Positions 1-42,734 of a stretch of 42,734 bases of DNA are shown one piece after another. A program made the translations under genes and the position numbers. The DNA comes from Catenovulum maritimum (GTDB lineage: Bacteria > Pseudomonadota > Gammaproteobacteria > Enterobacterales > Alteromonadaceae): positions 1-42,734 of the forward strand of contig NZ_KQ130510.1 of NCBI RefSeq assembly GCF_001050375.1, read 5' to 3'. Positions within the stretch are counted from its first letter, which is position 1. Every line of letters begins with the position of its first letter. Below the pieces are notes generated by a model that made no database searches, had not been told where the DNA came from, and worked only from the letters and a program-made list of their open reading frames with translations.

Positions 1-83
1 AGCTCTATATAAAAACCAAAAAATACATTTCTAACAAATAGCGCTAAATCAAAAGAAAACACATGCAGAATAAATATTGTAAA

Positions 84-1106
84 GTAAATGCTTACACCTT
101 TATATCTCGAGCTTCACTAAGCAGGTTGTTTTACAGCGTCAAATATATCTTAATCCAAGTGTTCAGGGCGTAAATCCATACACCTAACAAATAGAATAAA
201 CACATATGGTGTAAAGATTTACTATGTATGGCAAGTCAAGGTGTAACGATTTACGCGCTAAAAGTTGAATTCCCCCAAATGGTGTATAGATATACTTCAA
301 ATAATGCTGGGCTTTAGCCAAGGTGTAGTATTTTACTAGAGCAAACAGCTAAGGAAGCTATAACTAAAACGAAAAATATAGCTAAAGTGTAGAAATATAC
401 GCTCTAAGCACTGAAAGGTGTAGTGATTTACTCTTATGTTTGCTTTAAAGGTGTAATAATTTACGACCTTTCTTAATAAAGGTGTATATATATGCGATCT
501 TTGCGTATTTCAGGATAAGAGAGAAAGAGTTAGGGCCTTTACAGTGAAATAACTAGATAAAGCGAGCTTAAACGCCAAAAACTCGCTAAAAATAAAGGCT
601 AAGGTGTAAGGAAAAACTTGTGTAATAGCACATAAGGTGTAGTTATATACTTCTAAGGTGTATGATTATGCGCTTTTTAAAAAGTAAAACATTACACCTA
701 AACCAAGTAAAAAATTACACCTTGGTAAAACAAAACAAGTAAAATTATACACCTAATAAGTAGATGCATACACCTTAAGCAAGTACAACACTACACTTAG
801 CAAGTAAACTTCTACACTTTAAGTATCTAAGTGATTGAAAAATAGTAAGCAAAAACGATCAGATCAGATCTAAATTGTTTTTAAATAAAAAAGATCTAGA
901 TCTTAAACAGAGCTAATAAATATTAGTTTTTCATATTAAGAAGTAAAATAATACACCATTAAAGTAAAAGCTTACACCTTTAATATATAAGTTGTTGTTT
1001 TTTATAGGGCACACAGGGATCGTAAATGCAATAAAAATGTAAAAATAACCTTGAACATAACACTGTGTCATGATAATTTTGTATGATTAAAGGTGTAAAG
1101 AAATAC
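84..1106. repeat. Iteron-type replication origin (about 22 copies of a 15-bp repeat)
   Basis: The 1.1 kb before the Rep gene has no credible gene and is filled with copies of GGTGTA-N4-5-TWTAC or its complement GTAWA-N4-5-TACACC. By eye the 15-bp cores start at 84, 170, 208, 240, 281, 322, 386, 417, 450, 481, 603 (weak), 636, 657, 684, 707, 739, 760, 783, 804, 943, 964 and 1092. Copies from 208 to 657 read GGTGTA on the + strand, those from 684 to 964 are inverted, and the last, at 1092-1106, is forward again. Many neighbours are 21, 31-33 or 41 bp apart, close to whole helical turns. Such repeats are the binding sites of Rep_3-type initiators in iteron plasmids. The copy ending 4 bp before the rep start codon probably serves autoregulation. 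That this is a working origin is inferred from layout. Confidence 0.88.
857..904. other. GATC-rich, A/T-rich candidate DNA unwinding element
   Basis: Five GATC sites occur at 857, 862, 867, 893 and 899. The first three are in 5-bp steps, and an almost pure A/T stretch separates them from the last two. Positions 891-904 form a perfect 14-bp palindrome with two GATC sites. Clustered Dam sites next to an A/T-rich melting region are known from oriC and from the P1 and F family of iteron origins, where they tie initiation to methylation and SeqA. Placement inside the iteron field supports the same role here, by inference. Confidence 0.6.
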
Positions 1107-1110
1107 GATT

Positions 1111-19709: not shown

Positions 19710-19758
19710 ATGTATTATTTTAATGGTACTTTCTATATTTTTACGGGTTGGTGAATTA

Positions 19759-20133
19759 GGTGTAATGGTTTACGTGTTATTCATCTAATAATGTGTGATT
19801 GGGCTCTCTTATTAAATTTAATGCATTTATCTTGCTTATAAAATGGATACAAGCGAGTCGCAAGTTTCTACACCTTAGTATACAAAGCGTGCAGCCCCCT
19901 TTTAAATTAAGTAAATATTTACACCTTTGTGTGTATATTGCTCAGCGTGAATAAATAGTGCGAGTCACTTCTTTTTATGTGACTCGATGCAAAGGCAAAT
20001 TTAACGACCATATTTGTTCTTTTTTGCAGAACTTTGTTGAATATGTGATACCAACCTAGAATGTGTAGCCGATTTATATACTTAGAGTTAGCTAATCTAC
20101 TTGTATAGTATCAACAAAGTAAATAACTACACT
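19759..20133. repeat. Scattered origin-type iterons leading into the tandem array
   Basis: Exact or near matches to the origin iteron occur at 19759-19773 (GGTGTAATGGTTTAC), 19911-19925 (GTAAATATTTACACC) and 20119-20133 (GTAAATAACTACACT). Between them, at 19961-19986, is an inverted repeat CGAGTCAC/GTGACTCG with a 10-base loop. The stretch 19625-20180 has no gene that I can see. Confidence 0.65.
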
Positions 20134-20180
20134 TTTGTATATAAAATGATTAGTTTAATCAGTGTATTAATCAATATAGA

Positions 20181-20878
20181 CGTAAAGTGCTACACCTTCT
20201 ATGCGTCTTAGGTTATCTAACTTGATTTAAGGACGTAAAACACTACACCTTGTATGCGTTTTAGGTTACCTAACTTGGTTTAAGGACGTAAAATACTACA
20301 CCTTGCATGCGCGTCTTAGGTTATCTAACTTTGTTTAGGACGTAAAATACTACACCTTGCATGCGCGACTTAGTTTATCTAACTTGGTTTTGCACGTAAA
20401 ATACTACACCTTGCATGCGTATTAGGTTATCTCACTTGGTTTAAGGACGTAAAATACTACACCTTGTATCCGGTTTAGGTTATCGAGCTTGATTTTTCAC
20501 GTAAAACACTACACCTTGCATCCGGTTTAGGTTATCTAATTTGATTTAGGACGTAAAATACTACACCTTGCATGCGTCTTAGGTTATCTAACTTGGTTTA
20601 GCACGTAAAATACTACACCTTGTATGAGCCTTAGGCTATTTAGCTTGGTTTAGCACGTAAAATACTACACCTTGTATGAGCCTTAGGCTATTTAGCTTGG
20701 TTTAGCACGTAAAATACTACACCTTGCATGCGTCTTAGGTTATCTAACTTGGTTTAGCACGTAAAATACTACACCTTGCACGAGTTTTAGGTTATCTCAC
20801 TTGGTTTAGCACGTAAAATACTACACCTTGCATGCGTTTAGGGCATCTAACTTGGTTTAGCACGTAAAATATTACACC
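20181..20878. repeat. Tandem array of 14 origin-type iterons, 51-54 bp period
   Basis: Each unit begins with CGTAAAATACTACACCTT or a close variant and continues with a spacer of the type GCATGCG-N2-TTAGGTTATCTAACTTGG-TTTAG. The 15-bp cores start at 20182, 20235, 20288, 20342, 20396, 20449, 20501, 20553, 20605, 20657, 20709, 20761, 20813 and 20864, so the step is 51-54 bp, mostly 52. That is close to five helical turns, which puts all copies on one face. The core GTAAAATACTACACC is the exact complement of the origin iteron at 322-336. The units starting at 20604 and 20656 are identical over 52 bp, a sign of recent duplication. No ORF of note crosses the array. Confidence 0.92.
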
Positions 20879-21199
20879 TAGTGTTAAGTGTTGGTCTTCG
20901 TTCAAAGCAGGGGGGAACCTGTGATAGACTTTAGCCATAATTATCTATTTTTAGGTTTATTAACTGAAAAATGAACGTAAAAAGATAGATCGAGTGCCTT
21001 TCTGACTAGCCTAATCAAGGTGAGCCGAAAATTATTTAACTTTTTGTGACCACTAACTCAAGTAAAAGGTAGCGCCTTATAATCTTAATCTTATCCAAAC
21101 TCACTGTTTAGTTGTGAATATAGACATTTTGCAAATTTTTTAGATGAAAAGTGAAGTAATAACTAAAGCAATCACTAAGATTAAAACTACATAGAAGAC

Positions 21200-21214
21200 G
21201 TAAATGTTTACACC
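21200..21214 (-). repeat. Last iteron of the remote cluster
   Basis: GTAAATGTTTACACC, 48 bases before the end of the esterase gene that follows. The 320 bases between it and the tandem array (20879-21199) show no gene or clear structure. Confidence 0.6.
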
Positions 21215-21262
21215 TTCTATGCGGGAGAGGGAAGGGATTAAAAAATAGGCGTTAAACCGTAT

Positions 21263-25310: not shown

Positions 25311-25763
25311 TTATTCGCTTTCAATTTGCTTAGTTTTACTTCCAATTGGTATTGTTCTTGGTTTCAGTGCTTCCGGTACTTCACGGTATAGCTCTATGTG
25401 TAGCAATCCATTGTCTATATCTGCACCACTAACTTTTATGTGGTCACTCAGCTGAAATTTTCGTTCAAAATTACGCTCTGATATTCCTTTGTAAATAAAG
25501 CGCTTTTCGTCTTTAGTTTCTTGAGTTTGGGGTTTTTCACCCGTTACTGTCAAGGTGTTGTTTTCTATACCTAAGGTGAGTTCTTCTTCGGAAAAACCAG
25601 CAACGGCTAGCGTGATACGGTATTTATCTTCTGCAATTAGCTCTATATTGTACGGAGGGTAGCCAGAAGATTTATCACTTCGAGCTGCTGCATCCATCAT
25701 AGACGCTAAGTGATCAAAGCCAATAAAAGAACGGTATAGTGGAGAAAGGTCAAAAGTTTTCAT
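25311..25763 (-). CDS. ibpA: Small heat-shock protein IbpA/Hsp20
   Basis: A 150-residue holdase chaperone that keeps unfolded proteins in a refoldable state. It has the IbpA N-terminus (PLYRSFIGFDHLASMMD), the alpha-crystallin domain (about 36-125; YNIELIAEDKYRITLAVAGFSEEEL, GISERNFERKFQL), and a C-terminal extension with the IPI-like anchor RTIPIGS. Two regulatory layers are visible: a sigma-32 promoter at 25861-25888 and a leader that folds like a ROSE thermometer. It is monocistronic, with its own terminator. Confidence 0.93.
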   Translation of the reverse strand: MKTFDLSPLYRSFIGFDHLASMMDAAARSDKSSGYPPYNIELIAEDKYRITLAVAGFSEEELTLGIENNTLTVTGEKPQTQETKDEKRFIYKGISERNFERKFQLSDHIKVSGADIDNGLLHIELYREVPEALKPRTIPIGSKTKQIESE

Positions 25764-25854
25764 AATTCATATCCTCGCAATTAAGCAATATGTTAAATTT
25801 AAATTGTGTGCCACCTAGTTAGGCTGGCGGTTTTGAGCCCGTTATCGGCGCTCA
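25764..25854 (-). promoter_or_regulatory. ROSE-type RNA thermometer in the ibpA leader
   Basis: On the minus strand, the ~90-nt leader can form three hairpins. Two upstream ones (TTGAGC-G-CCG/CGG-GCTCAA and GCCA-G-CCT/AGG-TGGC) each have one bulged G. The last (25769-25791) pairs ATATTGCTT with GAGGATAT, so that the UUGCU motif masks the AGGA ribosome site with a bulged G, the mark of ROSE elements. Heat would open it and allow translation. Confidence 0.75.
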
Positions 25855-25860
25855 ATTAAT

Positions 25861-25888
25861 AGATAGGGTCGGTTAAATATGTTTCAAG
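25861..25888 (-). promoter_or_regulatory. Sigma-32 heat-shock promoter of ibpA
   Basis: Minus strand CTTGAAA (25888-25882), 13 bases, then CCCTATCT (25868-25861), very near the sigma-32 consensus CTTGAAA-N13/14-CCCCATNT. Its -35 box overlaps the first codons of the divergent tatD-like gene. Confidence 0.8.
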
Positions 25889-26718
25889 CATTTTTTGAAA
25901 AAAAATTTAAAAATAATTATCCTTTAGTTGACTCTCATTGCCATTTGGATTTATGTAATAAATCTAACCAGTTGAATAATATAATTAAAAAATCAGAATC
26001 TAAGCACGTTAAATTTTTTGTTCTACCGGGTATAAATTCAGATAATTGGATTGAAATATTAAATATTGCAGCCCATTATCCAAATGTATTTTTTGCTTTA
26101 GGTATACATCCGTACTTTATTCAGTGTGAAGTGGATGCTCAAAACCAATTTAATCAATTGCAAAATATGCTAGAAGCGACGGACTTTATTGCGAGTCAAC
26201 AACAGTTTATTGCGATAGGTGAAATAGGTATAGACTCGAGTAGATCGGATATTAAACTACAGTCATTGATTTTTAAGCAGCAATTATTATTAGCACAAAA
26301 ACTTGCTTTACCCGTTATTATTCACCATAGAAATTCCATTGATTTAATTTGCCAGCTTGTTCGCCAAACAAATTTTAGCCATGGAGGCGTAGTTCATGCT
26401 TTTTCTGGGAGTCAGCAACAAGCTGATAACTTAATCGCTCTTGGTTTTAAATTAGGTGTGGGTGGTGTAATTACCTACCCAAGAGCAAGCAAAACCAGAA
26501 GGGTCATTCAATCTGTCAGTTTGGCGTCATTGTTAATTGAAACTGATTCTCCAGATATGCCGCTTGCTGGCTATCAGGGCCAAGACAATCATCCCAGCCA
26601 AGCTGTCTTGGTGTTTAAAGCTTTATGCGAGTTAAGACAAGAACCGCCCGAGGTGATTCAGCAAGCGTTATGGCACAATGTTAAAGCTTGCTTTCCAAGA
26701 TTCTTAGTCAGTTTGTAA
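25879..26718 (+). CDS. TatD-family metal-dependent hydrolase (YjjV-like)
   Basis: A 279-residue TIM-barrel hydrolase of the TatD DNase family. The metal-binding motifs are present: VDSHCHLD near 17-24, the metal glutamate in IGEIGID, the PVIIHHRN histidine, the HAFSGS histidine, and ETDSPDMPL. It most resembles YjjV, a presumed 3'-5' nuclease or deoxyribonuclease acting in DNA repair or turnover. No good ribosome site precedes the ATG, and its promoter region overlaps the ibpA sigma-32 promoter. It is convergent with the SPOR gene. Confidence 0.87.
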   Translation: MFQAFFEKKFKNNYPLVDSHCHLDLCNKSNQLNNIIKKSESKHVKFFVLPGINSDNWIEILNIAAHYPNVFFALGIHPYFIQCEVDAQNQFNQLQNMLEATDFIASQQQFIAIGEIGIDSSRSDIKLQSLIFKQQLLLAQKLALPVIIHHRNSIDLICQLVRQTNFSHGGVVHAFSGSQQQADNLIALGFKLGVGGVITYPRASKTRRVIQSVSLASLLIETDSPDMPLAGYQGQDNHPSQAVLVFKALCELRQEPPEVIQQALWHNVKACFPRFLVSL

Positions 26719-26752
26719 GTGTTCACTTTTAAATAAGGGATTAAGGCATCGT

Positions 26753-27802
26753 TTATTTAATTATTCTGACGATACCATCTATTCTCAGCTGTTGTTTGAT
26801 TTCAGCTTTAACTTTTATCGCCATTTGTTCTGTGTAATCTGCTGCAACTGAAACTAATTGAAAATTCCCTGATTGCGTTATTTTGCACTGGTAACCTAAA
26901 TTAGCTAATTTAGTCGCTAATTCTTTTGCATTGGCTGGATTAGAAAACGCTGCAAGTTGAACTTTATAAAAAGTTTCATTGGTTTTCGTATTGGCTATCA
27001 CTTCAGTTTTCGGGGTAACAATTGGTTTAGATTCAACTTCAATCTTAGGTTTATTTGATTCGGCTGCTACAGGTAAGTTTAAATTACTCTGCTGAGTCTG
27101 GCTTTTCTGCGTTTGGGTTATGGCTTGAACCTGTGGTTTGTTTAGTATCTTGGTTTCTGTATTAACCACAGACTGATTTGCATTACTACGAATTCTTTTA
27201 TCTTGTGCAGAAGCTTGGCTTGAGCCTGTGAACCATGCAACTTTTTCTGTTTTGGCTTTTTTGGGGCTAGTAGATGAAAATTTGTATCTAAGACCTAAAT
27301 TAGCGGTTGTTACTGAGCCGATAAAGTCCATATTGTTCACTTTATCCATTCCCAAATTGACAGACCAGCTTGGTGTAAGTGACCATTCAATTTCTGCCGC
27401 TAAATTTAATCCAGTGGTGCCTCTTTCGTGTTCAATTCGGTTAACGCCCGTTATTTGTGCTAACGAAGTTGCAGCACCTAAATGGATATTTAAGTTGATA
27501 TTGTCAGTGAGCTCTAAAGGTAATTTATAGCCAAATTTTATTATGGGCAAGTCATGTGCTTGCTCAAAACCATCTTGGTCAATAAAGGCATATTGGCTGA
27601 TTTGACCATAGCTAAGGTAAACCCCGCCTAAGTCACTATTGAGATAACTCGCTTGAAGCCTATAACCGCTTTGCTTATTAAGTTGATTCGCTTGACTAGC
27701 ATAAACAGAAGTGGATATTTGATTTGAGCCTTCCGCCTGAACCAATTGAGTGGTTAAGCTCGAAATCAGTAGCGCTTGGCAAGTTATTTTTATTAGATCC
27801 AT
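26753..27802 (-). CDS. Outer-membrane beta-barrel protein with C-terminal SPOR domain
   Basis: A 349-residue envelope protein. A signal peptide (cleavage after VQA23) is followed by a small beta-barrel-like region (about 30-180, alternating strands such as LNIHLGAATSLAQI and NLGLRYKF). A low-complexity linker rich in Q, T, S, K and P (about 185-270) follows, and then a SPOR domain (about 278-349; FYKVQLAAFSNPANAKELATKL). SPOR domains bind denuded peptidoglycan, often at division sites. The combination of barrel and SPOR would tie outer membrane and cell wall. Barrel identity is inferred from the strand pattern; the SPOR domain is clear. Confidence 0.75.
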   Translation of the reverse strand: MDLIKITCQALLISSLTTQLVQAEGSNQISTSVYASQANQLNKQSGYRLQASYLNSDLGGVYLSYGQISQYAFIDQDGFEQAHDLPIIKFGYKLPLELTDNINLNIHLGAATSLAQITGVNRIEHERGTTGLNLAAEIEWSLTPSWSVNLGMDKVNNMDFIGSVTTANLGLRYKFSSTSPKKAKTEKVAWFTGSSQASAQDKRIRSNANQSVVNTETKILNKPQVQAITQTQKSQTQQSNLNLPVAAESNKPKIEVESKPIVTPKTEVIANTKTNETFYKVQLAAFSNPANAKELATKLANLGYQCKITQSGNFQLVSVAADYTEQMAIKVKAEIKQQLRIDGIVRIIK

Positions 27803-28017
27803 TTGATAACATCAATACTGTAAATTTCATTTAGTTTAATTCTTTTTTAACTTGAGTCAAAAAAACCTCATAGTTTAATTAACCACTCCTAACGCAACTG
27901 TAAAAATAATGGTGATTTCATCCTCTCGTTAAATTAGAAATGATCTAAACTTAATGGTAGTTTCATTATCAATGAGTACTTTGGTCTTACTTGTTTGTGA
28001 TAATTTGGGAGGTTTTG

Positions 28018-29013
28018 ATGACAAAAGCATATTTTGTTAATTACCTTGATAATATTCTGGCAGGTAAAATAGATGAAGCTAAGCAGGGTATAGGGTTAGG
28101 TGTAAATGGAAGCCTTAAACAGCTTACTGCTGGTGTCATTCAGTTTCAGCCTGTCGCCTCAACGAATCGAGCTTTGATTTTATCTTGTGGTGTGCATGGA
28201 GATGAAACAGCACCTATGGAGGTAATTCAGGTTTTGATTCGTAACTTGATCTGCAATCGAGTTGCGCTTAACTGCAATTTATTAATTATCTTTGCTAACT
28301 TAGATGCTGTTCAACAGCAAAAAAGGTTTTGCCAAGAAAATCTAAATCGATTATTTAAACTAGATGAAAGCAAGCTTGATAATTTAACACTTGAGGCTTC
28401 AAGAGCTAAGTTATTAATTGAATGTCTAGAAGAATTTAGTTCGTGCTACCCTAATTTCTATCATCTTGATTTACATTCTTCTATTTATGATTCGTATTTT
28501 CCGATCTTTACTATATTGCCTAAAATTATGAGTAGCGTTAAGGGTAATATGGGGAATGGGCGTTTGAGCTTAAGTTGTGATGCTTCAATACAATCGAATA
28601 GTCCTTCAAATACATTTAGTTATTATACTGCTAATCGATTTGGTGCTGTTTCTGCGACTGTTGAATTGGGCCAAAGCAAACCGTTTAAGCAAAATGATCT
28701 TACTCAATTTAATCAGTTTTACGCAGCGGTAACAGATTTTATTCAAGGGCTTGATTCAGCTACGCAGTTACCTTTTATTGTGGCAAAACATCAGTTTAAG
28801 GTGCACCAAGTGCTAATAAAGAAGACCAAACAATTTCGTTTTACAGCACAGTTGCCGATAGTTAATTTTACTCAATTTTCAGCTGGATACTGTGTCTCAA
28901 CTGACGGTGAAAATCAGCCTTATCATGTTGGCGATGAAAGTGAATATATATGCTTTGCCAACCCAGGAGTGCCCATTAATGCTAGAGCAGGCTTGATGTT
29001 AAAACAGCTTTGA
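28018..29013 (+). CDS. AstE/AspA-family zinc deacylase (succinylglutamate desuccinylase-like)
   Basis: A 331-residue zinc hydrolase of the succinylglutamate desuccinylase/aspartoacylase family. The zinc ligands appear in CGVHGDETAP (H-x-x-E) and DLHSS (H), and the catalytic glutamate in ATVELGQ. AstE removes succinate from N-succinylglutamate in the last step of the arginine succinyltransferase pathway. No other ast gene is nearby, so the exact substrate is open. The start ATG 28018 has a strong GGGAGG six bases upstream; an in-frame TTG at 27991 does not. Confidence 0.82.
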   Translation: MTKAYFVNYLDNILAGKIDEAKQGIGLGVNGSLKQLTAGVIQFQPVASTNRALILSCGVHGDETAPMEVIQVLIRNLICNRVALNCNLLIIFANLDAVQQQKRFCQENLNRLFKLDESKLDNLTLEASRAKLLIECLEEFSSCYPNFYHLDLHSSIYDSYFPIFTILPKIMSSVKGNMGNGRLSLSCDASIQSNSPSNTFSYYTANRFGAVSATVELGQSKPFKQNDLTQFNQFYAAVTDFIQGLDSATQLPFIVAKHQFKVHQVLIKKTKQFRFTAQLPIVNFTQFSAGYCVSTDGENQPYHVGDESEYICFANPGVPINARAGLMLKQL

Positions 29014-29018
29014 ATATA

Positions 29019-31400
29019 TTAATAGGACGATGTTTGAAGCCAGTCCTCTGCGCTTTTCGGCTCTGCTAAATAGTAGCCTTGGGAATAATCAAAGCCCATA
29101 GATTTTACTTTTTCATATAAAGCGGCTGAATCTACAAACTCGGCAACCGTTTTCATACCTAAATTTTGTGCTGACTCAATAATGGTTTGAACGACTAATT
29201 CTGCTTTTTTATCTATCAAAATACGCTGAATTAAACTGCCATCTACCTTTAATTTATTCGCTTGCAAATCGAGAATATGACCGAAATTAGAGTAGCCAGT
29301 TCCAAAGTCGTCAATGGCAATTTCTGAACCTAATGCCTGTAGGTTTTTAATGATGGCACTGAATTCTTTATGATTTTCAATTTCTTCTGTTTCAGTTATT
29401 TCAAAACCTACTTTGTCTGCTAATTGGCTTTGCTTTAACGTGGTGAGTAGGTTTTCAAACTGGTTGTTGGCAACATCTAGTTGACTTATATTGATAGATA
29501 CTAGAGTATTTTCTTCTCGAACAAACTCTAAAGCTCGATGAAAAACGATATGTGTTAATTTATGGTAGAGGCGAGATTGTTTGGCGACTTCTAAAAAAAA
29601 GAATGGACCTACGACATTACCCTTGGTATCAATTAAGCGAATTAAGGCTTCATAACAAGCTATCTTGCCCGTTTTATTGCAGATTATAGGTTGAAAATAA
29701 GCCGTTATCCGATTGTCATTGATGGCTTGTTTTAGTTTATGGTGCCATTCTAAATTTTGCTGTTTTTTCTTTTGTTCGATCTGATTGTCGTTGTGAGTGC
29801 TAATTGGTGAATTGTGTTTTTTGGCGAATAGCAAGGCAGAGTGTGCTTGATTGATTTTCTCTGCAGATACATGGTGACTAATGCCTGCAGTAAAAGTTAC
29901 ATTAATGGCAATTGTTTCTGGTAAAAATTCAACTTGTTCAACCATGAATAGTAAGTTTTCGATTTCTTTAGTTAGGGCTTCTAATGGCGTTCCGGCAGGC
30001 ACGATAAGTGCAAAATTATCACCCGAAATCCTGTATAAATTAAATGTGGCTTTAATGTTTTGTTGTAACCATAGACTGACATTACAAAGTAGTTGATCTC
30101 CAATATCGCTACCATAAAAGGCATTAACGGTTCTGAAATTATTGATGTCTAGCAGAACTAAGCAGCAACTTGATTGTTTTTTTAGGTCTTCCACTAACTT
30201 TGTTCGGTTGGGAAGTTTAGTTAGCGTATCTGTAAATTGTTGATGAATTATATTGTTTCTATGCCTTAATAAGACAATGAGTCCTAATGAAAAAACGAAA
30301 AACATAATGCCAAAAACTATAGAAAAGAACGATATTTTTGAGTGATGTTTTTGATAGAAACTACTGGGCTGATTTAACACTATTGCAGAGTTAAAAAAAT
30401 CATTAGATAAATCTACTTTAAGTTTTTCAGCCACTTGGTAATCTATCACTAGCCTTTTTTTTGTACTCAGGGGGATAGGATACTTGTTTTGTTCGCTTGC
30501 ACCTTTAAGGATATTAATCGCTAAGTTAGCTGCACCTTCACCATATACAGCCTCTAAGTGGTAACCTGCAAGTGCACCGATTTCAAAGTTACCATTTAGA
30601 ACAATGATAGGGTATCTTGGTCTTAAAACACTTAACAGTTGATGTATGTTTACTAAAATATCATCGTCATCTTTAATTGCGCCGACAGAACCGATAATGA
30701 CGGGGAGATTCTGATACTCATCAAGCACTGCTAACAGGCTACCTAGTCGTTGTATGCTAATGTGCGTAATTTTAGAGTGGTTAATATGTTGACTGTTGTA
30801 ACGTTGAACCGCTGCTGAATTGACCTGATCAGTGACTGAATCATCCCCAATTAATAAAATGTCTTTTGCTTTAGGTGAGATTAGGTTTATTAGTTGGATA
30901 CTTTGTTTTATTCCTTGCTTCTCAATGACGCCTGTCGTTTTATTATGTTTTGCTTGAACAATAATTTGCTCATTATTTACACCGGAAAAGACCACGGGAA
31001 TATCTTTAATAAAATCAATTTCATTCTTTACGATAATTTCTGCAGCGTAATCATCCGTTAAATAAATTAAATCGGGCAAATGATTAGCGTACTTCTCTTC
31101 TAAGTATTGAATGATACGTAAGGAAAGCTCAGGAGTTGGCGTAATTTTTTTCGTATTTAGATATTCGGTAGAATAATTAAATTGAATATCGGGTCGTGCT
31201 TTAGCTAACCCAGATTTAAAAGAATCAAATTGATTTTTTGTCCAAGGAAAATCTTCATGGTATGAATGGATGGATAGAATTTCTATGTTTTCTTGAGTAA
31301 GTACTTGGAACGTGAAACAGAGTGATAATATCGTGGCTTTAGACAGATTAACTAGGATTGATTGCCCCGAATTGATTAACAAACCTAACTGTCTAAACAT
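29019..31400 (-). CDS. Membrane c-di-GMP phosphodiesterase: ABC-binding-like sensor, degenerate GGDEF, EAL
   Basis: A 793-residue signalling protein. After an N-terminal hydrophobic segment, about 40-320 looks like the PF04392-type periplasmic binding domain (LSIHSYHEDFPWTKNQ, IPVVFSGVNNE, DILLIGDDSVTD). A membrane helix (about 357-380) leads to a GGDEF domain whose active-site motif reads SGDNF, so it is unlikely to make c-di-GMP. The EAL domain (about 550-790) keeps YEALIRL, NISQLD, EITETEE and DDFGTGYSN, but has AEFVD where AEGVE is usual. Phosphodiesterase activity is therefore likely, with the degenerate GGDEF perhaps a GTP-sensing domain. Its stop lies 6 bases from the stop of the convergent deacylase gene. 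Confidence 0.83.
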   Translation of the reverse strand: MFRQLGLLINSGQSILVNLSKATILSLCFTFQVLTQENIEILSIHSYHEDFPWTKNQFDSFKSGLAKARPDIQFNYSTEYLNTKKITPTPELSLRIIQYLEEKYANHLPDLIYLTDDYAAEIIVKNEIDFIKDIPVVFSGVNNEQIIVQAKHNKTTGVIEKQGIKQSIQLINLISPKAKDILLIGDDSVTDQVNSAAVQRYNSQHINHSKITHISIQRLGSLLAVLDEYQNLPVIIGSVGAIKDDDDILVNIHQLLSVLRPRYPIIVLNGNFEIGALAGYHLEAVYGEGAANLAINILKGASEQNKYPIPLSTKKRLVIDYQVAEKLKVDLSNDFFNSAIVLNQPSSFYQKHHSKISFFSIVFGIMFFVFSLGLIVLLRHRNNIIHQQFTDTLTKLPNRTKLVEDLKKQSSCCLVLLDINNFRTVNAFYGSDIGDQLLCNVSLWLQQNIKATFNLYRISGDNFALIVPAGTPLEALTKEIENLLFMVEQVEFLPETIAINVTFTAGISHHVSAEKINQAHSALLFAKKHNSPISTHNDNQIEQKKKQQNLEWHHKLKQAINDNRITAYFQPIICNKTGKIACYEALIRLIDTKGNVVGPFFFLEVAKQSRLYHKLTHIVFHRALEFVREENTLVSINISQLDVANNQFENLLTTLKQSQLADKVGFEITETEEIENHKEFSAIIKNLQALGSEIAIDDFGTGYSNFGHILDLQANKLKVDGSLIQRILIDKKAELVVQTIIESAQNLGMKTVAEFVDSAALYEKVKSMGFDYSQGYYLAEPKSAEDWLQTSSY

Positions 31401-31525
31401 ATTAAAATAAAGTACATTTTTAAACCATGTTTAATGTATAACACATAGTTTGTAAAACAGTTAGTTAGAAATAGTTTGTTCTATTGGATCTATTGCCGTT
31501 AAATTAATTTTGGTTTATTACCAAC

Positions 31526-32047
31526 TTATTTAGGCTCTCTACTTATTTGTCGCTTTTTCCAATTATTCGCAACAGACATTCGCCAGATTAAAGAAATACC
31601 AATATAGCCTAATAGAGAAAATGTTACTGCGGCTATACCACAGCCTGTCAGCAATGCTGGACCAATAGTCGCCATGCTTTCAGTTAAAAATTGCCAACTC
31701 AATTCAAATTGGAAATTTTGCTGTTCTTGTCCTAAAACAAAAGAGCCTAGTAAATAACAAGCATAAAAAATAGGCGGGATAGTAAAAGGATTCGTTATCC
31801 AAACAATGGCGACAGAAAGCGGTAAATTGGCTCTAAAAATAATAGCCCCTGCTGCTGAAAGCCACATTTGAAATGGAACGGGTATAAAAGCATTAAACAA
31901 ACCAAGCGCAAAAGCGGTTGTTACAGAATGACGATTAAGGTGCCATAAATTTGGATCATGTAACAAGTTGCCAAATATTTTTAATGATTTTTGATTTTTA
32001 ATGGTTTGGTGATCAGGTAAAAATCGCTGTATAAATTTTTTAGGCAT
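31526..32047 (-). CDS. DUF2062 membrane protein
   Basis: A 173-residue protein with the DUF2062 signature (VTTAFALGLFNAFIPVPFQM, ANLPLSVAIVWITNP) and two to three membrane helices: about 42-60, 88-105 and 130-155. Members of this family sit in the inner membrane and their function is unknown. It lies divergently from comEC across 32 bases, a pairing seen in related gammaproteobacteria. Confidence 0.85.
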   Translation of the reverse strand: MPKKFIQRFLPDHQTIKNQKSLKIFGNLLHDPNLWHLNRHSVTTAFALGLFNAFIPVPFQMWLSAAGAIIFRANLPLSVAIVWITNPFTIPPIFYACYLLGSFVLGQEQQNFQFELSWQFLTESMATIGPALLTGCGIAAVTFSLLGYIGISLIWRMSVANNWKKRQISREPK

Positions 32048-32079
32048 ACAGTCTTAACTACTCTCTAAAAGGTTGACAC

Positions 32080-34392
32080 ATGGAAGCGTGTTTAATTTGG
32101 TTCATTCTTGGTAACTTAACTGCTAGTCAGTTTCCTAAGTTAATTAGTTTTGATGAACTAATAATGACAACTGCTTTAATGTTTTTAGCAATATTCTTCA
32201 AGCGCTTCCAAGCAGCTTGTTTTGCGCTGGGGTTTAACCTTTTATTTGCAGTTGTGCTGTTAACTATTTCAATACCAAGCAAGCATTTTAATTTGGGGAG
32301 TGACATTAGCATATCTGGACAAATCATCACACTAGTAAAGCAAGAAAAAAATAAAATTCGCTTCGATCTTGAAGTCGATTGCATATCAGTTAAAGCTCAG
32401 CAGAAAGATTTTATATGCGATACAAGCTTTTTGCTGAATCCCAAAGTACGTCTCGTTTGGTATTACCCTAAAACACAGCTTAGTTTGGGTAACCGAGTTC
32501 AGCTAAGCGTTAAGCTTAAAGAGTTGACTGGTTTGCACAATCAGGCGGGTTTTAATTACCAAAAATGGTTATTCTCTAAAAATTACCTGGCAACTGGCTA
32601 TATTAAACAGCTACTAAAAGTAGAGGATATTCCCAATAGTCGAGCAAATTACTTCAGTCGGTTTTTAGCTGAGTACGAGTCATACCCACATAAAGGTTTT
32701 ATGCTTGGGCTTTTACTCGGCAACCGAGATTATATTTCTGCGCCAGAGTGGCAGGTCTTAACTCGAACGGGGACAGGGCATTTATTAGCCATATCCGGTT
32801 TGCACTTAGGTTTGGTCTTTGGTTGGAGTTGGTTAGTTTTTAAGGTAATGGTTAGGCCGCTATCGCTATTGTTAAAGATCAATTTAGAATCTAGCTTACT
32901 GCTATTAGCGCTTTCTTCAACTTGGTTTTTTGCTTATTTTACTGGGTTAGCGACCCCTAGTATCAGGGCCGGCATATTTATCTCTATTTTTGTTGTATCG
33001 ATTTATTTAAAGCTTAATTTGAGTTGGCGATTAAAATATTTTCTTGCCATGGCTATGATTTTAACCATAGATCCGTTAGCCAGCTTGAGTATTTCTTTTT
33101 GGTTATCTTTTTATGCAGCTGCAGTTGTTTTGGGTCTAGTGTGGTTTTTGCGGCAATGGCAGTTTAAATCGACTGGATTAGTTCGCTACTTATATTATTT
33201 CTTAATTTTCCAAGCAGTTTTATTTATAACTTTACTACCGGTACAAATCGCTTTTTTTTCGCATATACCTCTGGTTAGTTTTTTTGCTAACACAATCGCA
33301 ATTCCAGCTGTGAGTTTTATTATTCTCCCCGTTCTTTTATTAAGTGCTTTGTGCTTGAGTTTGTCGAGTTATTTATCTATTTTTCTGGCGGATATCGCTA
33401 GCTATGTTTTAACTATTCTCTATCAATATCTATCTTGGCTTAGCCACATTAAATGGGCTTATGTAGCTGTGCCAAACAACTTTATATTTGAAATTTCTGT
33501 CGTTTTATTAGTGCTTTTATTGTTTGTAATTGCTTACATACTTAATTCGAATCGTAAGGTTTTTGTGAGCATCTTGGTGGGGTATAGCTCAATTTTTTTA
33601 GTCTATGTTCTGGGCGAAAAACCAACTTGGCAAATTGATGTAATGGACGTTGGTCAGGGGCTGGCTATTGTCATTAGCCATAATGGTCAAGCTGTTGTAT
33701 ACGATACTGGTGATGCATTTAATACAGGCTTTAATTTATTTGAAGCGGCGGTTGAACCTAGTTTAAAAGCTCAAGGGTTAAAATTGGTTGCTGTGATTAC
33801 CAGTCATGCAGATAAAGACCATGCTGGGGGGCTTGAATATATTCAAGCCAATTATCCTAGTACGAAAATTTGGTTCCCTGAACAGCACTGTCAAAATCTG
33901 GAGCAAAATTTAATAGGCTTATCATGGCAAGTTTTATGGCCTACCGCACAAGCTTTGCTAAATAAAAATCAAATCTCAAAAAATAACCTATCTTGCGTTT
34001 TAAGGGTCTCTAAATTCGGTAAAAGTGTTTTGTTAACGGGCGACATTGAAGCGGATACTGAAGCCAAGTTGGTTAACTTGCACTCTGACGAATTAATTTC
34101 AAATGCCTTCCTAGTGCCACATCATGGGAGTAAAACCTCAAGCCAGCAATTGTTTATTGACTCAATTTCGCCTACCTATGCCATTATTAGTCGAGGTAAG
34201 GATAATCGCTTTGGTCATCCACATTTGAGCGTGGTAGAAAAGTTAAATGCGAGCGAAATTCGAATACTAGATACAGCCGTTCATGGCCAAATACGCTTTC
34301 AATTTACCGCTAAGCAAGCCCCTAAACTGAGCTATTATAACCAGTCTGCTTTTATTCCTTGGCATAGTAAAATTTTTAGGGGTGATCTTTAA
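32080..34392 (+). CDS. comEC: ComEC/Rec2 DNA-uptake channel
   Basis: A 770-residue inner-membrane protein that carries single-stranded DNA into the cytoplasm during transformation. In order: N-terminal membrane helices and an OB-like DUF4131 region (about 1-170), the Competence domain with many helices (about 195-500; RTGTGHLLAISGLHLGLVFG is characteristic), and a C-terminal metallo-beta-lactamase domain (about 515-750; DVMDVGQGLAIV, TSHADKDHAGG, LLTGDIE, VPHHGSKTSS) with its metal ligands intact. The gene is full length. It is 47 bases upstream of msbA, the usual gammaproteobacterial order. Confidence 0.93.
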   Translation: MEACLIWFILGNLTASQFPKLISFDELIMTTALMFLAIFFKRFQAACFALGFNLLFAVVLLTISIPSKHFNLGSDISISGQIITLVKQEKNKIRFDLEVDCISVKAQQKDFICDTSFLLNPKVRLVWYYPKTQLSLGNRVQLSVKLKELTGLHNQAGFNYQKWLFSKNYLATGYIKQLLKVEDIPNSRANYFSRFLAEYESYPHKGFMLGLLLGNRDYISAPEWQVLTRTGTGHLLAISGLHLGLVFGWSWLVFKVMVRPLSLLLKINLESSLLLLALSSTWFFAYFTGLATPSIRAGIFISIFVVSIYLKLNLSWRLKYFLAMAMILTIDPLASLSISFWLSFYAAAVVLGLVWFLRQWQFKSTGLVRYLYYFLIFQAVLFITLLPVQIAFFSHIPLVSFFANTIAIPAVSFIILPVLLLSALCLSLSSYLSIFLADIASYVLTILYQYLSWLSHIKWAYVAVPNNFIFEISVVLLVLLLFVIAYILNSNRKVFVSILVGYSSIFLVYVLGEKPTWQIDVMDVGQGLAIVISHNGQAVVYDTGDAFNTGFNLFEAAVEPSLKAQGLKLVAVITSHADKDHAGGLEYIQANYPSTKIWFPEQHCQNLEQNLIGLSWQVLWPTAQALLNKNQISKNNLSCVLRVSKFGKSVLLTGDIEADTEAKLVNLHSDELISNAFLVPHHGSKTSSQQLFIDSISPTYAIISRGKDNRFGHPHLSVVEKLNASEIRILDTAVHGQIRFQFTAKQAPKLSYYNQSAFIPWHSKIFRGDL

Positions 34393-34439
34393 ATTTAGAG
34401 CGATTAGAATAGCGCCATCTTCTTACAGTAGTTAGCATA

Positions 34440-36191
34440 ATGACAAACACTCAAAAATCATCTTCAGATCCTGTTTTTCTTCGTTTACTAGGCTATGTTA
34501 AGCATTATCGTATCGGCTTTATTGCCGCTATTTTAGGTATGATTGCTTATTCCTCGATTGATATTTTCTTTTATTCACAAATTCAAACCTTTATCGATAA
34601 TGGATTGGTGGACAAAGATTATGAGCTCATTTACATGATGGGTATCGCTGTGCCTTTTGTCTTTTTGGCTCGAGGCATTGCTAATTTTATCGCTACTTAT
34701 AGTCTAAATTGGGTTGGAACCCGAGTCGTTGCTAGATTAAGGCAAGATGTATTTACCCATATGATGAAACTCCCCGTTCCATTTCATGACGAAAACTCAA
34801 CGGGAGATTTAATTTCTAAAATCACCTACGACATAGCTCAAGTTCAGCAAGCTTCAAGTAAGGCATTAATGACCTTGGTTAGAGAAGGTGCTTTTGTCAT
34901 TGGTTTAGTTGCTTACATGTTTTACTTAAGTTGGCAATTGTCGGCTATTTTCTTATTAATAGGGCCTCTAGTTGCTGTCATAGTTACCTTTGTTAGCAAG
35001 CGTTTTAGAATGGTTAGTAAGAAGTTGCAGCAAGCTGCTGGTGGGGTTACAACCGTATCCGAGCAAATGCTGAATGGGCATAAAGTTGTCGTAATGAACA
35101 ATGCTCAGCAGACTGAGTTTGAAAAGTTTTCTGAAGTAAATAACCTTAGTCGCCAACAGCAAATGAAAATGGTTAGTACAACTGCGGTAAGTGTTTCGGT
35201 TATTCAAATTATAGCCTCGCTAGCTTTATCAGTGGTGCTCATTATTGCAAGTAACCCTGAATTTATGGAGACATTAACTGCAGGTACTTTCACAACTATT
35301 ATCACCTTTATGATGACTTTGCTTAGACCACTTAAGTTATTAACGACAGTGAATAGCGAATTTCAACGAGGGATGGCGGCTTGTGCAAGTGTGTTTGAAT
35401 TGTTGGATGAGAAAACCGAAAAAGACAAAGGGAAATTAGAAGTTGAGCGAGTTGCAGGTGAAATAAAGTTTGATAACTTAACTTTTACTTATGCAACTAA
35501 GGATGAGCCAGCGTTAAACTCGGTAAATCTACATATACCAGCAGGCAAAACTTTTGCTCTCGTCGGTCAATCAGGTAGTGGTAAATCGACAATCGTCAGC
35601 TTATTAACTCGTTTTTATGATTATCAATCTGGGGTGATTGAAATCGATGGTCATAAAATTACCGATTACAGTTTAAGCTCATTAAGAGATCAGTTTGCTT
35701 TGGTTTCTCAGCAAGTTATTTTGTTTAATGACACGATTGCCAATAATATAGCATACGGTATCGATGGAGTAACACGGGAGCAAGTGGAGCAAGCGGCTGA
35801 TGCTGCTTATGTAACTGAGTTCACTAACGGTTTACCCGAAGGGTTAGATACTGAGATTGGTGAAAACGGTGTCAGTTTATCTGGTGGACAAAGACAAAGA
35901 GTGACGATTGCTCGAGCTATCTTGAAAAATGCACCTATATTAATTTTAGATGAAGCGACTTCAGCTTTAGATACAGAATCGGAACGCCGTATCCAAATGG
36001 CATTAGATGAACTCAGTGAAAATCGCACTGTTATCGTAATTGCGCATAGGCTTTCTACTATTGAAAATGCAGATTCAATTGTGGTGATGAGCCAAGGTAA
36101 AATTGTTGAGCAAGGTAGCCATGCTGAGTTGTTACAAAAACAAGGGTTTTACCATCAAATACATAGCTTACAATTTTCAACAGAGGTTTAA
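34440..36191 (+). CDS. msbA: Lipid A flippase MsbA (ABC exporter)
   Basis: A 583-residue half-transporter that flips lipid A-core across the inner membrane as a homodimer. Six membrane helices (about 20-310) precede an ATPase domain with Walker A GQSGSGKST (about 377-385), Q-loop SQQ, signature LSGGQRQR, Walker B ILILDEATSALD and the switch histidine in IAHRLST. Length is the family's usual one. Its stop codon is 2 bases before the lpxK start, so msbA and lpxK form one operon as in E. coli. Confidence 0.95.
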   Translation: MTNTQKSSSDPVFLRLLGYVKHYRIGFIAAILGMIAYSSIDIFFYSQIQTFIDNGLVDKDYELIYMMGIAVPFVFLARGIANFIATYSLNWVGTRVVARLRQDVFTHMMKLPVPFHDENSTGDLISKITYDIAQVQQASSKALMTLVREGAFVIGLVAYMFYLSWQLSAIFLLIGPLVAVIVTFVSKRFRMVSKKLQQAAGGVTTVSEQMLNGHKVVVMNNAQQTEFEKFSEVNNLSRQQQMKMVSTTAVSVSVIQIIASLALSVVLIIASNPEFMETLTAGTFTTIITFMMTLLRPLKLLTTVNSEFQRGMAACASVFELLDEKTEKDKGKLEVERVAGEIKFDNLTFTYATKDEPALNSVNLHIPAGKTFALVGQSGSGKSTIVSLLTRFYDYQSGVIEIDGHKITDYSLSSLRDQFALVSQQVILFNDTIANNIAYGIDGVTREQVEQAADAAYVTEFTNGLPEGLDTEIGENGVSLSGGQRQRVTIARAILKNAPILILDEATSALDTESERRIQMALDELSENRTVIVIAHRLSTIENADSIVVMSQGKIVEQGSHAELLQKQGFYHQIHSLQFSTEV

Positions 36192-36193
36192 AC

Positions 36194-37174
36194 TTGAATT
36201 GGTTTGAACGAGGCTGGTATCAGCAGCACAAAGGCACCTTACTATTTTTGCCATTAAGCGGGGTGTTTTGGCTACTGTCGACGCTGAGACGAACTTTGTT
36301 TAAATTGGGTGTTAAACAAAGTGTTGAACTTGAAAAACCTGTTATTGTGGTTGGTAATATCACAGTTGGCGGCACAGGAAAAACACCTTTTGTAATTTGG
36401 TTAGTTGAGCATTTACGAAGCAAAGGTTGGAACCCAGGTGTTATTTCCCGTGGTTACGGTGGCCAAATTAAAACTGAGGTACATCTAGTTCAACCTCAAG
36501 ATAGTGCGAGCTTTATTGGTGATGAAGTTAAGCTGATATTTAATCGCACTCAGGTGCCAATTGCTGTGTCTAGTCAAAGAGCCAATGCAGCTAAGGCTCT
36601 GATTGAAAAATGTCATTGCGATATTATTATTTCTGATGACGGCTTACAGCACTACCAACTAAACCGAGACGTTGAAATTATTTTGATCGATGGCAGCCGT
36701 CAATTAGGTAATCAATTTTTATTGCCAGCAGGGCCTTTAAGAGAAGGACTGTGGCGTTTGAATACCAGTGACTTGGTGATTCAAAATGGTCAAAGTTCAC
36801 AAGCGTCGTTTACGCCTCATATGTTTACTACCCAAATAAGTGAACCTAAGCCGGTTGTTGGCACTGATTCCTATCAAATATTCGATTATTCAGCTACTTA
36901 CCATAGTGTTTGCGCTATAGGTAACCCTCAGCGATTTTTTGATTCTCTCTCGCAAAAGAATATAAAAATTGCATCTGAAAGTGTGTTTTTAGATCATTAT
37001 CAATATATTCAGTCAGACTTTGGTCAGTTTGAGCAAGAGATTATAATGACAGAGAAGGACGCGGTTAAATGCATGGACTTTGCTCAAACAGGTTGGTGGT
37101 ATTTGCCAATTTCAATCCAACCAGACCTTTTATTTATTGATAAATTGGACAAGAAATTAAATTCTTTAAGGTAA
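36194..37174 (+). CDS. lpxK: Tetraacyldisaccharide 4'-kinase LpxK, TTG start
   Basis: A 326-residue peripheral membrane kinase that adds the 4'-phosphate of lipid A. It has an N-terminal hydrophobic helix (about 14-33) and the P-loop VGGTGKTPF at about 57-65, followed by the family motif VISRGYGG and the Walker-B-like IISDDGLQH. The start is TTG at 36194 with AGAGG eight bases upstream; no ATG lies close enough to keep the conserved N-terminus NWFERGWY. The weak start codon, 2 bases after msbA, suggests coupled translation. Confidence 0.93.
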
Positions 37175-37178
37175 AAAT

Positions 37179-37367
37179 ATGCTTTTTGACAAAAAATTAT
37201 TAGACATAGTCGCTTGTCCTATTTGCAAAGGTAAATTAGAGTTAAAAAATGATTTAAATGAGCTTTGGTGCCGTGGTGATAGATTGGCATATTCGGTCAA
37301 AGAAGGGATCCCTGTATTGTTAGACAGCGAAGCTCGCACTTTAACTATGGATGAACTTGAAAAATGA
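37179..37367 (+). CDS. ycaR: UPF0434/Trm112-like zinc-ribbon protein YcaR
   Basis: A 62-residue protein with the opening [17 protein letters not shown] and a second half ([25 protein letters not shown]) typical of YcaR, which sits between lpxK and kdsB in most gammaproteobacteria. The fold is the Trm112 zinc-ribbon type, but with fewer cysteines (C13, C16, C31). It starts 4 bases after lpxK and overlaps kdsB by 4 bases (ATGA), so translation is coupled. Function is not established. Confidence 0.93.
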
Positions 37368-38140
37368 GCTATACAATTGTAATTCCAGCAAGATATGCAT
37401 CCACTAGATTCCCAGGCAAGCCTCTTGTTGATATCGCTGGCAAAACTATGCTGCATAGAGTTTACAAACAATGTAAAAAAACTCATGCTAATAGAATCAT
37501 TATTGCGACAGATGATCAACGTATCGCAGACGAAGCTGAAGCGATAGGGGCTGAATGTTGTATTACTTCTGTTAATCATGAATCTGGCACTGAGCGAATC
37601 GCGGAAGTGATAGATCAAATGAACTTGGCTGCCGATGAAATCATTGTCAATGTTCAAGGTGATGAGCCGTTTATCCCTAGCGCTATTATCGATCAAGTCG
37701 CGAATAATATGGGGTTATATACTGAAGCTGACATGGCAACTTTATCTGTACCTATTACTGATGTAGAAGAAGTATTTAACCCCAATGTGGTTAAAGTGGT
37801 AACAGATAAGAGTGGTTATGCGCTTTATTTTAGTCGCAGCACTATGCCATACGATAGAGCGCGTTTTTTAAATCAAGACGATATTAAAGAAATCGGCAAT
37901 TATTATTATCGTCATATTGGCATTTACGCTTATCGAGCTAAGTTTGTAAAACAGTATTTGAATTGGCCGGCTAGTCCGCTTGAACAAGCAGAATCTCTTG
38001 AGCAGTTAAGAGTTTTATGGCACGGCGAGAAAATTCATGTTGGCGTTGCAAGTGAAATACCACTTGGGGGCATAGACACCCCGGAAGATTTAGACAATGC
38101 GATTATTCAATTTAAAGCTAGGAAGAAAGAAAAATCATGA
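37364..38140 (+). CDS. kdsB: CMP-KDO synthetase KdsB
   Basis: A 258-residue nucleotidyltransferase that activates KDO with CTP for addition to lipid A. Diagnostic motifs are [15 protein letters not shown] at the start, the VNVQGDEPF metal-binding motif and the [16 protein letters not shown] segment, with HIGIYAYR later. Length is normal. It lies in the msbA-lpxK-ycaR-kdsB operon and overlaps genes on both sides by 4 bases. Confidence 0.95.
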
Positions 38141-42429: not shown

Positions 42430-42734
42430 GGTAGTGTTTAGAAATCTATGTCATTTCAATCTATTATTTAGATAAAACAGGAGTGACATATGACTCAAGA
42501 ATTTGACTTCAATGCAGCGTTAAAACAACTTCAATCTGGGAAAGCGCTAGTTGGTAAAGATGGTGTTCTTACTCCATTAATCAAACAACTGACCGAAGCC
42601 GCTTTGAAAGCGGAACTAGAGCAGCATCTTGAAGATGATATCCAGCCCAATCGTAAAAATGGCTCAATATCCAAAACGATTAAAACCTCAACCGGTGAAT
42701 TTGAATTAGAAACCCCCAGAGACAGAGCGGGTAG
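42430..42734 (+). mobile_element. IS256-family insertion sequence, 5' part (cut by the window end)
   Basis: The transposase below is preceded by a GGTAGTGTTTAGAAATC stretch at 42430, which has the look of an IS256-family end. I cannot see the other end or the target duplication, so the left boundary is provisional. Confidence 0.6.
42490..42734 (+). CDS. IS256-family transposase, N-terminal fragment
   Basis: The first 81 codons of a Mutator-type (PF00872) transposase: GKDGVLTPLIKQLTEAALKA, then EQHL, NRKNGSISKTIKT and GEFELETPRDRAG, which is the typical N-terminus. The window ends inside the gene and the frame is open to the edge; the DDE residues lie beyond it. Ribosome site AGGAG is 6 bases before the ATG. 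Confidence 0.92.
   Translation, partial: MTQEFDFNAALKQLQSGKALVGKDGVLTPLIKQLTEAALKAELEQHLEDDIQPNRKNGSISKTIKTSTGEFELETPRDRAG

Follow-up and report, generated by a model that had tools for sequence, protein, structure and literature searches.

The analysed window, the whole 42,734-bp stretch of a single 42.7-kb contig of Catenovulum maritimum, carries a putative replication origin, the adjoining gene of a predicted replication initiator (Rep) and a tandem array of origin-type repeats (array 1), which lies 17.6 kb past the 3' end of rep and 19 kb from the origin. A second array of the same repeat (array 2) is found on another contig of the genome, C1 (Table 1). No Rfam family matched the window at gathering thresholds. 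The contig ends, at positions 42500-42734, inside a gene that by eye resembles that of an IS256-type transposase.

Table 1. Replication-related features of the window and the second array on contig C1 (positions refer to the window unless C1 is given)
Feature	Position	Strand	Description
Contig left end	1..165	+	Identical to C1:140769-140933, directly before a 20-N scaffold gap
Putative replication origin region	84..1110	.	22 iterons of at least 12 bits, in both orientations; GATC-rich stretch near 857-905
Rep, predicted Rep_3-type initiator, 481 aa	1111..2556	+	Pfam Rep3_C above cut-off; Pi protein by profile; Foldseek match to Pi and RepE
Flanking iteron	19758..19773	-	Opposite orientation to array 1; pattern and matrix
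Flanking iteron	19860..19875	+	Matrix
Flanking iteron	19911..19926	+	Pattern and matrix
Degenerate flanking iteron	20119..20134	+	63 bp (one step) upstream of array 1; matrix
Phased iteron array 1	20181..20879	+	14 units of consensus GTAAAAYACTACACCTT plus a spacer of about 35 bp, steps 51-54 bp
Flanking iteron	21200..21215	+	Pattern and matrix
Array 2	C1:390905-392032	-	22 units in 21 uniform steps of 53 bp

The assignment of Rep draws on domain, profile and structure comparisons. The protein matches Pfam Rep3_C with 25.3 bits (cut-off 21.1) and, in a profile search, the Pi protein (E 3.3e-6). Rep3_N gave no match in it at E 0.001, although this domain is matched by its homologue RepB from plasmid pMBL6842 of Pseudoalteromonas rubra. 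A structure model (pLDDT 71.6, pTM 0.54) was matched by Foldseek to Pi (E 5.8e-7), RepE (1.7e-5) and, in all, 46 PDB chains at E <= 0.001, the geometry of these matches being weak (TM by query 0.20-0.29, rmsd 6-12). Those to Pi and RepE span 213-276 columns, with a TM by target of 0.38-0.56. With a predicted two-winged-helix Rep_3 fold and iterons adjoining its gene, the protein can be placed as a putative initiator of the Rep_3 (RepE/Pi) family.

Array 1 had been described in a first-pass annotation as 14 units in steps of 51-54 bp at 20181-20878, a description borne out by TRF, which reports one array in the window (20180-20879, period 52, 13.3 copies, 87% matches), by pattern matching and by a weight matrix built from the origin alone. 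The 13 steps between the 14 units measure 53, 53, 54, 54 and 53 bp, followed by seven of 52 bp and one of 51 bp. DNA has a helical repeat of 10.5 bp per turn, and on this value the steps of both arrays are close to five helical turns. The 15-mer at 322-336, in the origin, is an exact match to the array repeat on the other strand, as had been stated. Further copies around the array are present as well, but there are five of them and not the four originally counted. The central four bases of the iteron are variable among origin copies and read ATAC or ACAC in 12 of the 14 copies of array 1.

The distribution of the iteron in the genome was followed by pattern and by matrix, each with controls. 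The pattern GTAAANNNNTACACC has 56 matches in the complete 4.55-Mb genome, compared with one for the reversed pattern. They are located in the origin (12), array 1 (14), the flanks of array 1 (3), C1 (24) and elsewhere (3), and 53 of the 56 fall on just two contigs, the window's own (C29, with 29) and C1. The weight matrix was trained on 24 of the 25 pattern matches of the origin (one lacked a flank); two of these training sites, scoring 6.4 and 7.0, are dubious. At a threshold of at least 12 bits it finds 22 sites in the origin, 14 in array 1, five flanking the array and three in the remaining 40 kb or so of the window, and it recovers every unit of both arrays (14 of 14 and 22 of 22). Control searches at 10 bits or above returned 47 matches in 1.2 Mb of the C. 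adriaticum chromosome, which corresponds to about 0.03 expected in 700 bp, and 19 matches in 400 kb of C1 samples from which the one with array 2 had been excluded. There is good support for array 1 being a distant set of Rep iterons, as the array is predicted by a matrix that was trained on the origin only and the initiator matches the RepE/Pi family; it is further backed by a published iteron-binding homologue and by a remote cluster of a different iteron in a related replicon, pG7, both described below.

Both phased arrays conserve the iteron more strictly than the DNA between its copies. Pairwise divergence in array 1 is 0.056 for iteron columns versus 0.248 for spacer columns (14 rows, including the degenerate upstream unit and leaving out the last unit), and in array 2 it is 0.036 versus 0.168 (21 rows, last unit left out), a roughly 4.5-fold lower divergence of the iteron in each array. 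The consensus spacers of the two arrays are unrelated (632 of 2000 shuffles reach their alignment score), and array 2 itself has two spacer types of equal length behind the same iteron, represented 5 and 16 times among 21 spacers. The contrast between iteron and spacer is the strongest evidence for function, because neutral amplification of a unit would treat both parts alike. A functionless tandem amplification of a stray iteron is therefore an unlikely origin for the arrays: it would fit the many identical neighbouring units of array 2, which indicate recent duplication, and the failure to find an array in several relatives, but not this contrast, nor the nearly equal steps kept by unrelated spacers, nor the existence of a remote cluster in pG7. 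The same data leave unsupported the earlier suggestion that the shared spacer (TTAGGTTATCTAAC) binds a second protein, since the spacer of array 2 is unrelated at a nearly equal step and spacers drift so much faster than the iteron. The protein adjoining array 2 has no relative in the other seven genomes of the genus.

Rep homologues define the group of replicons to which the window can be compared. They occur in six of eight genomes of the genus, the window's own included, and in none of 52 other genomes searched, with one more on the P. rubra plasmid; an alignment query of Rep found five loci, where a search with the single Rep sequence found none. The carriers are Catenovulum sp. 2E275, C. 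agarivorans YM01 and DS-2, Gayadomonas joobiniege G7 on pG7 (770 kb) and C. adriaticum on pCadTS8_1 (672 kb). Twenty positions, counting M1 and including F79 and Y223, are common to the window's Rep and P. rubra RepB alone, which in a set of eight sequences is a lead only.

The left end of the window gives a further indication of its context. Just left of the sequence that it shares with C1, at C1:138049-139985, lie genes for ParA (PF13614) and a ParB-like protein, the latter with no Pfam match and 38% identity to pCadTS8_1 ParB over 89 aa; on pCadTS8_1, ParA and ParB are encoded directly upstream of rep. The 165-bp identity beside these genes, together with the parAB-rep order of pCadTS8_1, suggests that the window most likely continues leftwards into the left part of C1. 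A 20-N scaffold gap at C1:140935-140954 follows right after the shared stretch, and C1 may be mis-scaffolded. Of 30 window ORFs, seven strongly match the sampled part of pG7, where the matches form one block at 149-162 kb and another at 178-180 kb, near the pG7 origin at 141 kb; none has a strong match in the 380 of 672 kb of pCadTS8_1 covered, where Rep itself (45%) falls below the threshold. The window is most likely part of a large secondary replicon from the Catenovulum/Gayadomonas group that uses the pCadTS8_1/pG7 initiator family, and the size and content of the related replicons point to a chromid.

Several other observations concern these replicons. Five ORFs at 25311-38140 of the window have their matches at 1.094-1.147 Mb of the C. 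adriaticum chromosome, four in collinear order; they lie downstream of an agar-type catabolic cluster that matches pCadTS8_2, an arrangement read as replicon exchange. pCadTS8_2 (NZ_CP109967.1) carries blocks of core genes at 110-220 kb, namely rpsB, tsf, dnaE, bamA, accA, lepB, era and rpoE. Six perfect copies of GACATTTAA adjoin the origin of pCadTS8_1 (NZ_CP109966.1). On pG7, a dif-like site and a Tus gene are close to rep and the origin (116.6, 137.6 and 141.3 kb), and GC skew is positive in 23 of 24 samples spread around it, so this replicon looks unidirectionally replicated, as do many Pseudoalteromonas chromids.

A search of related genomes for the 52-bp unit near the same Rep family, proposed in the first-pass annotation, gave a divided answer: no array of that type was found, with 0-7 matches of GTAAANNNNTACACC in each of the other seven genomes of the genus, and a remote iteron cluster was found in pG7. 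This second cluster consists of pG7's own iteron type (AAGGTGGCNNNNTGTAC) and is situated at 308.9-309.7 kb, 168 kb from the pG7 origin. It comprises 16 sites by pattern with up to three mismatches; a strict matrix assigns 11 sites to it, nine to the origin and three to isolated positions in the 475 of 770 kb scanned. Its steps of 21-85 bp are unphased, which indicates that phasing is not a general property of such clusters. The main-chromosome contigs of G. joobiniege were searched by pattern only, and the pattern is imperfect for its iteron. In C. adriaticum, a whole-genome pattern search with up to two mismatches finds a cluster at the origin only, the scattered two-mismatch matches being at about control level, and the matrix likewise finds only the origin cluster in 380 of the 672 kb of pCadTS8_1. 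Since this replicon shares the initiator family, remote arrays are not required for its use. In 2E275, YM01 and DS-2, no cluster of at least three sites away from rep was found by pattern, which fits YM01 and DS-2 poorly, and no remote cluster by matrix in 29-40 kb per locus, where contig 9 of YM01 has one isolated site. Remote arrays are present in two of the six Rep-bearing genomes of the genus searched, that of the window and that with pG7; the two genomes without Rep stand outside this count.

Among the homologues of Rep considered here, published iteron binding was seen only for RepB of pMBL6842, which is 33% identical to Rep over 94%. The iteron of its origin (GTGTAG...TTTACG) closely resembles that of the window, in which GTGTAG is also present. 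RepB has been reported to bind a 36-bp origin site with GTGTAG iterons, by EMSA and footprinting (PMC7848731). The pMBL6842 iterons are also bound by the antitoxin PrpA, in competition with RepB (PMC7848731), so that such sites may have ligands other than Rep. That the array iteron is mainly read by another protein of this kind, for example a PrpA-like ribbon-helix-helix antitoxin competing with Rep, is nevertheless very unlikely, given that the PrpA-like family is absent among the 20 window ORFs scanned. Loose iteron matches on pMBL6842 number 23, of which 14 form one cluster upstream of rep and nine are scattered, and a matrix built from only four sites found no second cluster there.

Plasmid centromeres have a geometry akin to that of tandem phased arrays. 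This general resemblance favours another role that had been suggested, a centromere-like or pairing site at which Rep or another protein would position or cohere sister replicons. The role is nonetheless quite improbable: ParA and ParB-like genes are located just left of the origin, the iteron-like sites of pMBL6842 cluster at rep and not at parA about 10 kb away, and the remote cluster of pG7 matches the type of pG7's own origin. No support was found for a Rep-based centromere.

Taken together, these comparisons argue that array 1 is probably a remote regulatory set of predicted Rep-binding iterons on a chromid-like replicon, operating through titration or handcuffing. Long-range control of this type would be the most likely role of the array, and both arrays may act as decoys that prevent excessive copying of the replicon. 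Array 1 would soak up Rep, and its Rep-bound sites could pair with Rep-bound sites of the origin (handcuffing). A fork starting at the origin would copy the array early, only 19 kb along its path, so that the decoy sites would double and free Rep would fall. Lower free Rep would in turn damp re-initiation within the same cell cycle, a scheme already put forward for datA and for the external RctB sites on chromosome II of Vibrio cholerae. The step of about five helical turns would place bound Rep molecules on one face of the DNA and would favour a compact complex across the whole array. Array 2 would act likewise, later or from another place. By count alone, the arrays, with 14 and 22 sites versus 22 at the origin, could hold more Rep than the origin does. 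The sites, their spacing, the stronger conservation of the iteron, the Rep family and the remote cluster of pG7 are what we observe; that Rep occupies the array, that it is titrated or handcuffed there, and that this serves timing are what we infer.

The location of array 2 bears on a different interpretation, in which array 2 is part of the main chromosome and, like crtS of V. cholerae, signals chromid initiation when it is replicated, with array 1 as the chromid-side partner. thrA, thrB, pdxH and tRNA-Arg are found on the same part of C1 as array 2, and thrA of C. adriaticum shares a contig with dnaA. Chromids of Pseudoalteromonas terminate in synchrony with the chromosome, and a crtS-like site was proposed, but not found, by the authors of that work (PMC7858055). 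Gene content, however, does not favour a chromosomal C1. Matches of C1 ORFs per sampled Mb of C. adriaticum amount to 17 for the chromosome, 53 for pCadTS8_2 and 50 for pCadTS8_1 (the 296 stop-to-stop ORFs were taken from about 0.43 of the 0.73 Mb of C1, with 20, 29 and 19 of them matching targets of 1.20, 0.55 and 0.38 Mb), and the 20 chromosomal matches are concentrated at 165-202 kb (14, with six elsewhere). C1 also carries a Tus gene (PF05472, at 602 kb), whose observed relatives are on secondary replicons or Rep-bearing contigs, namely pCadTS8_2, pG7, pMBL6842 and the rep contigs of YM01 and DS-2; none was found in the 1.2 of 3.2 Mb of the C. adriaticum chromosome searched. Moreover, crtS is another kind of site than iterons (PMC3937223), whereas both arrays are made of origin-type iterons, and by pattern no array of its own iteron turns up on the C. 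adriaticum chromosome.

Compositional signals from C1 are equivocal. A tetranucleotide classifier trained on C. adriaticum, with a cross-validated accuracy of 85% for chromosome and 73% for megaplasmid windows, assigned four of 21 C1 samples (at 1, 40, 500 and 680 kb) to megaplasmid and 17 to chromosome, including the sample with array 2 (0.35). At face value this counts against a non-chromosomal C1, but the classifier was treated as uninformative because both halves of the window were also called chromosomal. GC skew on C1 is slightly negative in the four samples before 140 kb and positive from 160 kb onwards (all 14 samples), which fits either location. A genome-wide search for dif-like sites yielded just two, on contigs C8 and C37. 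The view of array 2 as a chromosomal crtS analogue, which arose from thrA synteny, is weakened because C1 is a scaffold interrupted by a 20-N gap, because its left part ends in the first 165 bp of the window beside the ParA and ParB-like genes, and because most of the sampled C1 is not chromosome-like by gene content; it is retained as a doubtful alternative. It is similarly unlikely that the two phased arrays constitute a two-station replication clock with array 2 on the main chromosome, where fork passage would reset free initiator and couple chromid initiation to the chromosome through plain iterons instead of a crtS-like site.

Remote control by decoy iterons, the preferred reading, can be set beside several known systems. 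P1 incA, which adjoins repA, is an extra iteron set able to titrate or handcuff; array 1 could do the same, but sits well beyond the end of rep. To our knowledge, Rep_3 initiators do not use ATP. The E. coli datA locus resembles array 1 as a remote set of initiator sites that is duplicated soon after initiation, and differs in that it promotes DnaA-ATP hydrolysis (PMC3937223). The RepB origin of pMBL6842 has a homologous initiator and nearly the same iteron, with its iterons clustered at the origin only. If array 2 were chromosomal, V. cholerae crtS would be comparable, being bound by the initiator at a great distance from ori2; it is, however, a different kind of site, located on chromosome I, and it activates, while the arrays described here consist of origin-type iterons.

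The control of one replication round per cell cycle in plasmid-derived chromosomes has been studied mostly in V. cholerae (PMC3937223), and the mechanism of chromosome and chromid synchrony in Pseudoalteromonas was considered worth further study by its authors (PMC7858055). The arrays offer a direct test of titration versus handcuffing and of helical phasing, as they are discrete and removable and have a near-uniform site in fixed phase; the remote cluster of another iteron in pG7 suggests repeated emergence of remote initiator sites on replicons of this kind. The first-pass annotation knew of no described case of this geometry. For remote origin-type sites as such this does not hold, as they are already known from V. 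cholerae chromosome II (PMC3937223); for a large, helically phased tandem array far from the origin it does, none being described in the titles and abstract openings listed by our searches of open-access papers, and such an array is new as far as these searches go. On chromosome II, five scattered iterons and a 39-mer are spread over 74 kb, at a distance of about 40 kb from ori2 (Baek and Chattoraj 2014, PMC3937223). These external sites are reported to bind and titrate RctB, to inhibit replication and to lower the copy number of an ori2 plasmid; as proposed there, being duplicated early would let them guard against premature initiation (PMC3937223). Array 1 resembles them in placing origin-type initiator sites tens of kilobases outside the origin of the same, plasmid-derived replicon; the two arrays differ in that five single iterons and a 39-mer are replaced here by 14 and 22 tandem sites in steps of 51-54 bp, predicted to serve another initiator.
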